Source: an uncultured Chlorobiaceae bacterium
Lineage (GTDB): Bacteria; Bacteroidota; Chlorobiia; Chlorobiales; Chlorobiaceae
NCBI GenBank assembly: GCA_903869365.1
Contig: CAIPYV010000134.1
Span: 1-63,313, forward strand
Length of the DNA: 63,313 nt
Reading direction: 5' to 3'
How positions within the stretch are numbered: position 1 is the stretch's first letter; every line of letters starts with the position of its first letter. Positions 1,602 to 4,896 of the stretch are shown here, in pieces. Below the pieces are notes generated by a model that saw only the letters and a program-made list of their open reading frames with translations, was not told the DNA's origin and made no database searches. A program made the position numbers and the translations under genes.

Positions 1602-1937
1602 TTACTTGCTATGCTCAACGATATAGGCTACTGAGTTGCCAATCTGGGCATCGGTAAACTCAAGATTGCCTCCCTTTGCTGGCATCAGCCCTGTTTTACC
1701 CTGAAATCCCTTGATTGATTTACTGATTAACACATCCATACCCTGCGCAATACGGGGAGCCCATACCGTTTTGTCGCCGAGTCTTGGTGTTCCCCCCATG
1801 CCGGTTTTGTGGCATACTATACAGGCTGTTTCATAAATCGTTTTACCTGCCTGAAGATCATAGGCAGCTATAGCATCGCTGCAACTCAACGAAAACACAA
1901 AAAAAGCACAAAATATTGCTGAAAAGAATCGTGACAT
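1602..1937 (-). CDS. Cytochrome c-555-like class I c-type cytochrome
   Basis: A 111-residue secreted monoheme cytochrome. Residues 1-24 form a Sec signal peptide. The heme site is CIVCH (Cys39, Cys42, His43) and the likely Met axial ligand is Met85 in GLMPAKGG. The VWAPRIAQGMDVLISKSIKGF segment and the MPAKGG...DAQ...VAYIV end closely resemble the soluble cytochrome c-555 of green sulfur bacteria, which carries electrons to the photosynthetic reaction centre and links thiosulfate oxidation to it. It is transcribed divergently from the cytochrome-porin gene at 2288, with about 350 bp between start codons, so the two may share a regulatory region and an electron-transfer route. The family call is strong; the exact paralogue is not resolved. 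Confidence 0.85.
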   Translation of the reverse strand: MSRFFSAIFCAFFVFSLSCSDAIAAYDLQAGKTIYETACIVCHKTGMGGTPRLGDKTVWAPRIAQGMDVLISKSIKGFQGKTGLMPAKGGNLEFTDAQIGNSVAYIVEHSK

Positions 1938-2287
1938 AAGCTGTATCCCGGGTATGAATGATTGATGTGATGATCTGGAAAATAGGTTATCAATTTAGAA
2001 ATCTACATGAAGGTTCCTAATAAATTTTAATAAATTTTTAAGATAATTTAGAGATTTATTAATTTTTATATAGATTGGCGCTCGTAACGTTAGCTATGGA
2101 ATACTTGCCATTCCAATTGTGAAACATACTCCATGATATTTCACAATTTACCCAGATTGATTCCCTGTAGCCCCTAATTGATAAGATCAGATTATCTGAT
2201 TTTTTCAGAGCGACTCATGTATCGTGCTGCTCTTTTTTTTTGCACAAAAAAACAACCATAACAATCAAACCACGGAGAAAATCTCTT
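1938..2287. other. Divergent intergenic region between the two cytochrome genes
   Basis: AT-rich DNA without a plausible gene. It must hold the promoters of both cytochrome genes. The stretch 2000-2060 is almost entirely A/T. A ribosome binding site GGAG (2274-2277) precedes the ATG at 2288. I see no clear operator or hairpin. Confidence 0.5.
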
Positions 2288-3649
2288 ATGAGGAAAATAA
2301 CATTCGCATCTATCGCAACACTTTGTATGGTACCAATTTTGTCCTGGAGTTCTGAGAGCCAGGCCATACCTTCATGGGGAAGAAAGTACCAGACATCCTG
2401 TCTGATGTGTCACTCTGGTATGCCACAGCGGAATGCTGTTGGTGAAGCTTTCAAGAACAACGGTTATCGCATGCCTTCCGGTGTTGAAGAGGCGTTTACA
2501 AGGCAACAACAGGTCAAGATCGGAAATGAGGAATGGAAAAAAACTCTCGGAGCTCCTGTAGAAAGTTCATACCCCTCGTTTGATCCATTAAGCCTTGCTT
2601 TCAGCGGCAACCTTATTAGCTACAAATCACCGACCCACACCTCTACCGGTGCACTCTCGGCAAAAAAAGAGCTTACATACAACGCTCCTAATGTCGCATC
2701 GCTTTTTTTTGGCGGTTCAGTAGGTGAACATCTCACATTTTTCGGTGAAATCAATGGATTCGGTGGTGCCGCTGTGGAAACCGATAAGGACGTAACTTCC
2801 ACCTCTACAGTTGATACTCCGGTCTCTTCTAATGTCAGGGCGGTCTGGCAATTTTCTCCAGGTCTCAATCTGGCGCTCGGCAACAGCTTCAGCAATGTTA
2901 CCTGGAATGGGGTAGGCGTCGGTGGAGTTGTAAACGTATCGGGTGTGCTTCCTGCTCCTGTAACGTATGCAGAAGTGAACTTCACACGAGGCGACACAGC
3001 AGGGTACTCCCTTACTGCAGGTACCAGCATGGCAGCGAAAACCACAACACCTATTGTGGCAACATCAAATACCATTGATGATCTTCTCTATCTCCGTGGA
3101 AAATTTAAACTGTTTGGTGCAGGTCTGCTCACTGGTGCCAATGGAGACCTTGGTAATCCATATACCGGTCTTGACAACCAGGTAACCATAGGGGCCGGAC
3201 TCTCTTACGCTAAGAATTATATTTCCGGTGTAGCAGATCCGAAAACTCAAATAATTCCAACAATTGGTTTTGTAGGAAATTATACAGGAGAGTCTTTGGT
3301 TTACGGTGCAGATATCCAGGGAGTCTACAAAGACTTTCAGATCGGTGTAGCTGCAAGCCATGATCGTGATCTGCAACTCAATAACTTCAAGATAGAAGCA
3401 GGATACTTTATGTACTCCTGGCTTTTTGCAAAAGTTGCTTACTCAGACATCGCAAATGCAAATGTCATAAAATCAAGTTCCTATGATGTGCATCAGCCCA
3501 CCATTGCTCCAGCACTTTCCGCGTGGTTGTCCCCAGCCGTGTCACTTACAGGGATCTACACCTATTTTACCAAAGAGAGGACTGCCAACGCAATAACCGG
3601 CGTTACCAATCAGAACACTTTTGCTTTAGCTGTAAGAGCAAGTTTCTAA
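2288..3649 (+). CDS. Cyc2-like fused monoheme cytochrome-porin (outer membrane)
   Basis: A 453-residue protein. It starts with a signal peptide (about residues 1-25, ending SESQA). A single heme motif CLMCH (Cys38, Cys41, His42) sits in the pattern A-I-P-S-W-GRKYQTSCLMCH...GEAFKNNGY. The remaining ~400 residues alternate polar and hydrophobic positions with many Gly/Thr/Ser and end in an aromatic (RASF), as in an outer-membrane beta-barrel. This is the architecture of Cyc2, the fused cytochrome-porin that takes electrons from Fe(II) at the cell surface; the heme-proximal pattern (AxPxFAR...CxxCH...FGxxFKxxGY) is recognisably similar. The start at 2288 is chosen over one at 2240 because it gives a standard signal peptide and a GGAG site. 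Substrate (Fe(II) or other) is inference. A terminator follows at 3701. Confidence 0.7.
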   Translation: MRKITFASIATLCMVPILSWSSESQAIPSWGRKYQTSCLMCHSGMPQRNAVGEAFKNNGYRMPSGVEEAFTRQQQVKIGNEEWKKTLGAPVESSYPSFDPLSLAFSGNLISYKSPTHTSTGALSAKKELTYNAPNVASLFFGGSVGEHLTFFGEINGFGGAAVETDKDVTSTSTVDTPVSSNVRAVWQFSPGLNLALGNSFSNVTWNGVGVGGVVNVSGVLPAPVTYAEVNFTRGDTAGYSLTAGTSMAAKTTTPIVATSNTIDDLLYLRGKFKLFGAGLLTGANGDLGNPYTGLDNQVTIGAGLSYAKNYISGVADPKTQIIPTIGFVGNYTGESLVYGADIQGVYKDFQIGVAASHDRDLQLNNFKIEAGYFMYSWLFAKVAYSDIANANVIKSSSYDVHQPTIAPALSAWLSPAVSLTGIYTYFTKERTANAITGVTNQNTFALAVRASF

Positions 3650-3700
3650 ACAGAGATTAACCTCTCTCCTCAAAAAAAGTACCATAGCTATGCGTCTAAA

Positions 3701-3736
3701 GAAAGGCATGATTGTATATATATAATCATGCCTTTC
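3701..3736 (+). terminator. Hairpin downstream of the cytochrome-porin gene
   Basis: Perfect 13-bp inverted repeat GAAAGGCATGATT / AATCATGCCTTTC with a 10-nt AT-rich loop, 51 bp after the stop. It may serve as a terminator from the plus strand; the run of T after it is interrupted. Confidence 0.6.
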
Positions 3737-3756
3737 TACTTTCTTTCTTCATACTT

Positions 3757-4318
3757 TCACTTGAATAATATCGCTCCACCGTGTGCTATACCGAGGCGAT
3801 AACCGTTCCTGATGCGGCTTCCAGCTCTCCGAGTTCTCCGCCGCCAGCCGCACCGCTCACTTGCCTGCAAATGTCGCCACTGCCTGCTGCAGTTCCTCTT
3901 GTTTAGTAACGCTGCGACCAAATGATCGTGAAGTGCAGATACTTTGCTTCGCAGGCCGAACCAGCTCCATCGGCAGGCAGGATTTGCCCTGCAGCACTTT
4001 GCTCCACTGCTGCCCGATGCCCCAGATATCCTCAACCTTGGTGTGTTTCAGCGCAGCCTGTATTTCGTCGGTGCTGCGGAGCACGCAGACGCCTTGATAG
4101 TGCGGGTTCTTTTTGGCCAGCCGGTTGGCAATTTTGGCAAGCGTTTTGGTTGGCGCCATGCCGACGCAAACGGGAATGCCGGTATGCAGGCGGACCGTCT
4201 TGCGCCTTTGCCTGGCATAGTCTGGCAGGTCGAAGCGGCTGAAGCTCGACATATCGAGAAATGCTTCGTCGATGGAATAGACTTCGATCTCTGGAGCAAG
4301 TGCGGCAAGGGTTGACAC
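3757..4318 (-). pseudogene. umuC: umuC (DNA polymerase V catalytic subunit) remnant
   Basis: On the minus strand from 4318 one reads the palm-domain motif YSIDEAFLDM with the catalytic Asp-Glu pair, then the GIPVCVGMAPTKTLAKIANRLAKK segment, then VEDIWGIGQQW, all typical of UmuC. After WSKVLQG the sequence jumps to KSCLPMELVRPAKQSICTSRSFG, losing about 40 residues that normally lie between them. The N-terminal part of the polymerase is absent, and the frame is lost around 3857, where family-like sequence continues only in pieces. The gene is dead. It is the first of a run of broken genes to about 10.1 kb. Confidence 0.8.
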
Positions 4319-4470
4319 TTACCGTACCCGTTCACACGAGGCATAGAAAATATACAATCTGAAGAGGAGAAGGGAAGTTGGTTAAAAAAGTGGCTGCCAT
4401 TCCAGATACCTCTTCGTCGTTCTATATTAGTTGTCTCCAGGAACTGAAGTGAAATCAATCTGAGGAGGCA

Positions 4471-4896
4471 ATGATGGATCATGAAATGATGAATACCTTC
4501 AGTGACAAGCCAATGCTTTCGGCAGATTATGCTGCGCTGCTGGCTTCGGTGAAAGCGCGAGTTCTCGCTGCCCAGTATGAAGCTTTCAAAGCGGTGAACA
4601 AAGAGCTGGTTGTGCTCTATTGGGATATTGGACGGATGATTGTAGAACGGCAGGCGAATGCTGAACATGGTTCAGCTATAGCCGAACAGTTGGCATCCGA
4701 TCTCCATGCTGAGTTTCCGGGAATCAAAGGGTTTTCACGACGCAATGTGTTCTACATGCGGGAATTTTATTTACTCTATTGCGGTGATGAGCGAGTGCAA
4801 CTACTGGTTGCACAAATCGGCTGGACTCATAATCTGATTATTCTTCAGCACTGTATTATGCGTATATTTCGAAAAACAGATAAATTCAACGAATAA
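4471..4896 (+). pseudogene. DUF1016 (YhcG-type) nuclease, N-terminal fragment
   Basis: The first ~115 residues match the DUF1016 N-terminal domain: LYWDIGRMIVERQ, a LASDLHAEFPGIKGFSRRNVFYMREFY block and the start of the VAQIGWTHNLIILQ segment. The C-terminal PD-(D/E)XK nuclease domain of this family is missing: after LQHC the sequence becomes unrelated and stops at 4896. A ribosome binding site (GAGGAGG... before 4471) remains. Truncated remnant; intact homologues occur next to restriction systems. Confidence 0.7.

Follow-up and report, generated by a model that had tools for sequence, protein, structure and literature searches.

A Cyc2-like cytochrome-porin on a separate branch, divergent from a cytochrome c-555 gene in an uncultured Chlorobiaceae bacterium

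A cytochrome-porin gene opposite a c-555 gene

The window (the whole stretch of DNA analysed, 63,313 nucleotides from an uncultured Chlorobiaceae bacterium) carries a gene for a monoheme cytochrome-porin fusion that diverges from the gene of a small periplasmic cytochrome c, with the following features:

1602–1937, minus strand: c-555-type monoheme periplasmic cytochrome c, 111 aa, predicted to be secreted; PF13442 and PF00034 above cut-off
1938–2287, no strand: divergent intergenic region between the cytochrome-porin and c-555 genes, a 350-bp gap with presumed promoters
2288–3649, plus strand: monoheme cytochrome-porin fusion of the W clade (defined below), 453 aa, ATG start at 2288 and stop at 3649
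2288–2365, plus strand: predicted signal peptide, residues 1–26, MRKITFASIATLCMVPILSWSSESQA, with the cut placed from sequence and conservation
2366–2500, plus strand: cytochrome part, IPSWGRKYQTSCLMCHSGMPQRNAVGEAFKNNGYRMP and a few further residues, with the heme motif CLMCH at 2399–2413
2588–3646, plus strand: predicted 16-stranded beta-barrel ending in a C-terminal aromatic Phe, from an AlphaFold2 model with an OprO/OprP match
3700–3737, plus strand: terminator-like hairpin 3' of the cytochrome-porin gene, 17 pairs and then a T-rich stretch, of a kind whose number is not above chance

The frame 2288–3649 was kept open across many genomes at 50–95% identity, which marks it as a real gene rather than a chance ORF; a TTG start could extend it to 2240, but the relatives begin at ATG 2288 in the alignment. 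Its product has a single CxxCH (CLMCH, residues 38–42) located 12 residues past A26, where the signal peptide is probably cut, and it resembles Cyc2 both in this one N-terminal CxxCH following a signal peptide and in exceeding the Cyc2 length threshold of 365 aa. The initial annotation had described a 453-residue protein with one N-terminal CLMCH and a predicted barrel, and the ORF, its conservation and the modelled 16 strands agree with that description. Searching the PDB with phmmer gave no match for this protein, and NCBIfam gave one weak sub-cut-off match to a heme-motif domain; none of the genome's five cytochrome-porins is covered by a Pfam or NCBIfam model. A sigma-70 consensus search of the intergenic region gave no site above chance.

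The divergent neighbour had been named as a c-555, and this was confirmed by a match to PDB 4j20, the green sulfur bacterial cytochrome c-555, with which it is 64% identical along 86 residues of the mature protein (E 4e-36). Judged by this match, the 1602–1937 product is a genuine c-555 of the green sulfur bacterial type. It is one of several paralogues, as the genome holds at least eight c-555-family genes including this one, and its position ties it to the cytochrome-porin gene.

Gene fragments were also observed around the pair. Positions 1108–1251 match the group II intron model D1-D4-7 (104 bits); an intron ORF was not seen in the vicinity, and the match probably represents an intron fragment between an SRAP gene and the c-555 gene, while positions 3857–4893 hold a truncated DinB/UmuC-like ORF and a truncated DUF1016 ORF, decayed genes beside the cytochrome-porin.

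Predicted fold

An AlphaFold2 model of the window protein, built on 29 relatives and matched to solved structures by VIA-align, gave a barrel of 16 long strands (pTM 0.64, mean pLDDT 60), with low confidence (pLDDT under 50) for residues 1–98, heme part included. The best solved match was OprO (4rjw; Z 19.4, rmsd 3.7, 297 aligned) and the next was OprP (2o4v; Z 19.1), with further general porins within 1 Z of these scores. The model of the Cyc2 encoded in the same genome (C127, below) matched OprB (22.9), OprO (22.2) and OprP (22.1), and both OprO and OprP were named as structural relatives of Cyc2 PV-1 by Keffer et al. (PMC8406198). A fused OprO/OprP-like barrel of about 16 strands, as in Cyc2, is therefore predicted for the window protein. 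In these models, the porin fold common to the two proteins shows shared architecture, not shared function.

Five cytochrome-porins in one genome

A whole-genome search returned five full-length cytochrome-porins, encoded in the window and on C114, C76, C112 and C127, together with one short fragment. C114 carries the second W gene of the genome, 68% identical to the window protein and followed by a c-555 gene. The proteins of C76 and C112 belong to two further kinds, FB (46% identity to the window protein, with a Rieske gene adjoining) and FC (31% identity). The C127 protein (423 aa) resembles the window protein at the N-terminus only and carries ATPVYARQT...CAACH...PLL; its gene (C127:17189–18457, or 439–1707 of locus L006) has a c5-type cytochrome gene adjacent. 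A scan of named genomes with the C127 alignment returned C. ferrooxidans DSM 13031, Chlorobium N1 and Pelodictyon luteolum, as well as Trout Bog GSB-A and GSB-B, lucinid symbionts and others, and on this basis we assigned the C127 protein to orthodox Cluster 1 Cyc2. It is 94% identical to the Cyc2 of Trout Bog GSB-B. A 108-aa frame at C120:5279–5593 of the same genome (G000), 42% like the barrel of the window protein, is probably the remnant of another copy.

Separation of the W clade from Cyc2

Phylogenetic analysis of 78 sequences, including Cluster 1 Cyc2 and plasmid-borne proteobacterial Cyc2-like proteins, placed the window protein in the W clade, a Chlorobium clade (22 rows, support 100/100) whose neighbours were, in order, FB, FC and Bacteroidota RKY-type proteins. 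A branch with support of 100/99 parted this side from Cluster 1 Cyc2 and the plasmid-borne proteobacterial relatives, so that the window protein did not group in Cluster 1; "outside Cyc2" refers here to Cluster 1 and the plasmid-borne group, the Cyc2 references that the tree covers, and W may lie near Cluster 3. Forcing W and Cluster 1 into one clade was rejected (AU p 0.000163), and forcing W together with Chlorobium Cyc2 alone was rejected far more strongly. A tree of the cytochrome segment only gave the same split with support 95 and no row misplaced.

Motifs flanking the heme followed the same division. Upstream of the heme, the window protein has AIPSWGRKY where Cyc2 has AXPXFAR[Q/K][T/Y], and P-x-F-A-R-[QK]-[TY] occurred in 0/22 W proteins compared with a strict fit in 6/11 Chlorobium Cyc2. 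After the heme, the window protein has PQR in place of the Cyc2 P-x-L, which was present in 11/11 Chlorobium Cyc2 and 0/22 W proteins, 21 of the latter having P-x-R. As P-x-F-A-R is not strict within Cyc2 itself, we gave more weight to the tree and to P-x-L. The W signature can be written as PSW[AGS]RKY with mostly P-x-R, in contrast to the P-x-F-A-R-Q-T and P-x-L of Cluster 1. The closest relatives of W, the Chlorobiaceae FB and FC proteins that also occur in GSB-A and GSB-B, share the RKY...PxRN...GEAF block with W but, unlike W, retain P-x-F-A-R-K-Y.

Compared with Cluster 1 Cyc2 (Chlorobium ferrooxidans, Mariprofundus, Gallionellaceae), the window protein is alike in its signal peptide, single N-terminal CxxCH, length of about 400–450 aa, 16-strand OprO/OprP-like barrel and adjacent small cytochrome c gene, and unlike in its motifs, in its separate clade and in the absence of W from the cultured photoferrotrophs searched. 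These tests, which compare sequences of Cluster 1 and the plasmid-borne group, indicated that the window protein is a cytochrome-porin of Cyc2-like architecture on a separate branch and not Cyc2. The initial annotation had read it as Cyc2; that reading was supported for architecture but not for identity. It had named two findings as counting against it, of which a position outside all Cyc2 clades was observed as far as Cluster 1 and the plasmid-borne group were compared, and a lack of a predicted barrel was not.

Gene neighbourhoods

A c-555-family gene adjoined 19 of the 28 W-clade genes examined, and the remaining nine, all closely related, formed a single group next to genes for ResB/CcsA cytochrome c maturation, a group that also lies beside TlpA-like, DUF3570 and ApbE genes. 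In one W set, a histidine kinase and a response regulator were found upstream. Recurrent genes for a TlpA-like thioredoxin, a DUF3570 barrel, ApbE and large repeat proteins were seen at L150–L166, in one W group.

In another reading, the protein is a porin whose heme segment is vestigial or structural and whose c-555 neighbour is incidental; the DinB-like, DUF1016 and intron (1108–1251) fragments in this stretch mean that neighbours may have been shuffled. However, the heme motif was invariant in 25/25 W and 4/4 FB aligned proteins and the c-555 pairing was repeated in different genomic settings, and we regard this reading as very improbable.

FB genes, unlike W, lie mostly beside a cluster other than c-555: genes for cytochrome b (ExtP-like), an ExtQ-like protein and an eight-heme cytochrome adjoined FB in four of five loci examined, that of the window genome included, and three of these four had Rieske and ferredoxin genes too. 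At the locus of the window genome (L169, on C76), FB was found beside Rieske, ferredoxin, cytochrome b, an ExtQ-like membrane protein and an 873-aa eight-heme cytochrome, a cluster conserved in other Chlorobiaceae at L172, L173 and L175 and in part at L176. The ExtP/ExtQ-like neighbours raised the idea of a link between FB and Geobacter ExtI, which was rejected: the FB protein had no NCBIfam family match, and ExtI is described without a heme motif (PMC5877670).

Distribution among genomes and the electron donor

Across 86 Chlorobiaceae genomes, with W called at ≥50% identity, W was found in 27, Cyc2 in 22 and both in 8, as expected for independent occurrence (p 0.6). No W, FB or FC homologue was found at E 1e-5 in C. 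ferrooxidans DSM 13031, Chlorobium sp. N1, P. luteolum CIII or MAG W9. Three Cyc2 homologues have been reported for GSB-A and GSB-B, the Chlorobium of Trout Bog (PMC12285243); in our searches each had one Cluster 1 Cyc2, one FB and one FC, presumably the three homologues of that report. The nearest genome to that of the window by rpoB in the set was G037 (93%), and its Cyc2 and FB matches coincide with those of GSB-B, which makes a related lake Chlorobium the likely source of the window.

These data bear on whether the window protein could act as an Fe(II) oxidase and serve photoferrotrophy as the organism's second Cyc2. Its architecture and barrel class are those of Cyc2, RKY-type motifs were counted in the wide Cyc2 family by Keffer et al. 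(PMC8406198), and an orthodox Cyc2 in the organism makes iron oxidation plausible for the organism. Against this, W stands apart from Cluster 1 and the plasmid-borne proteobacterial group (100/99, AU p 0.0002), both Cyc2 motifs are missing from all 22 W proteins, W and Cyc2 occur independently, and W, FB and FC homologues are all absent from C. ferrooxidans, Chlorobium N1 and P. luteolum. An Fe(II) oxidase is therefore unlikely; Fe(II) oxidation by the window protein was not supported over other donors, and Fe(II) is possible as a donor but not favoured.

The window's own genome has dsrA, so sulfide oxidation is probable. Within its genus (g1), 22/22 genomes without full dsrA had at least one cytochrome-porin (p 0.003), and W occurred in 15/22 of them compared with 12/43 others (Fisher p 0.003, on counts that ignore kinship). 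On an rpoB tree, in which the branch of G004 is abnormal (its sequence is probably in the wrong orientation and was left as is), the direction of the counts was repeated in 3.4 of 13 independent pairs and reversed in 0 (median p 0.25, not significant). The association of W with dsrA loss is a hint only, not significant once relatedness is counted. A role in electron exchange with sulfur species, or in outer-membrane redox balance and not uptake for growth, would suit a likely sulfide oxidiser that keeps dsrA, and many Bacteroidota genomes beyond Chlorobiaceae encode related cytochrome-porins. The higher frequency of W without dsrA nevertheless fits a replacement donor better, and such a role seems to us quite doubtful.

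A proposed electron conduit into c-555

With a probability of roughly 0.6, we propose that the window protein is an outer-membrane electron conduit working like Cyc2 from a separate branch and passing electrons from a surface donor to c-555. The single-heme N-terminal segment would probably plug or line the predicted 16-strand barrel (residues 1–98 being of low confidence in the model) and be reduced by a surface donor; the electron would then go to the periplasmic c-555 of the neighbouring gene and could continue from there to the reaction centre of green sulfur bacteria (PscC/c-551). Candidate donors are Fe(II), reduced humic or DOM quinones and other extracellular reductants. Recurrence of the c-555 pairing, the c5-type cytochrome gene beside the organism's own Cyc2, the histidine kinase and response regulator genes near some W genes and the dsrA counts in g1 were taken in favour of a conduit, and the dsrA of the window's own genome against it. 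Electrons might also flow outward, or the protein might have some other role. We infer heme loading, outer-membrane location, the direction of electron flow, c-555 binding and the donor, and the electron uptake with a c-555 partner suggested initially is supported at that level, extracellular electron transfer into c-555 being a good inference. PioAB, MtoAB and MtrAB are likewise outer-membrane electron conduits with a barrel, but they use a separate multiheme cytochrome, whereas the window protein is one monoheme fusion.

More speculatively, the W clade may be a Chlorobium-specific outer-membrane module of cytochrome-porin and c-555, separate from Cyc2 though found alongside it in some genomes, for phototrophic uptake of electrons from a non-Fe(II) donor, reduced humic matter for example. 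Should humic matter be the source of the electrons that W proteins carry, these proteins would offer a testable gene for phototrophic electron uptake in brown-water lakes.

The presence of cyc2-like genes is taken to mark iron oxidation. Four kinds of cytochrome-porin occur in Chlorobium genomes and only one of the four is the Cyc2 of known photoferrotrophs, so counting all of them as one would overstate photoferrotrophy. The photoferrotrophy raised by the initial annotation is possible for this organism, where it rests on the orthodox Cyc2 locus on C127, but it lost ground as a role of the window protein, given that W is absent from C. ferrooxidans DSM 13031 and Chlorobium N1. A Cyc2 87% identical to that of the window genome was also seen on a contig labelled Campylobacterales MJ4_bin-227 (L052), possibly a misbinned Chlorobium contig.
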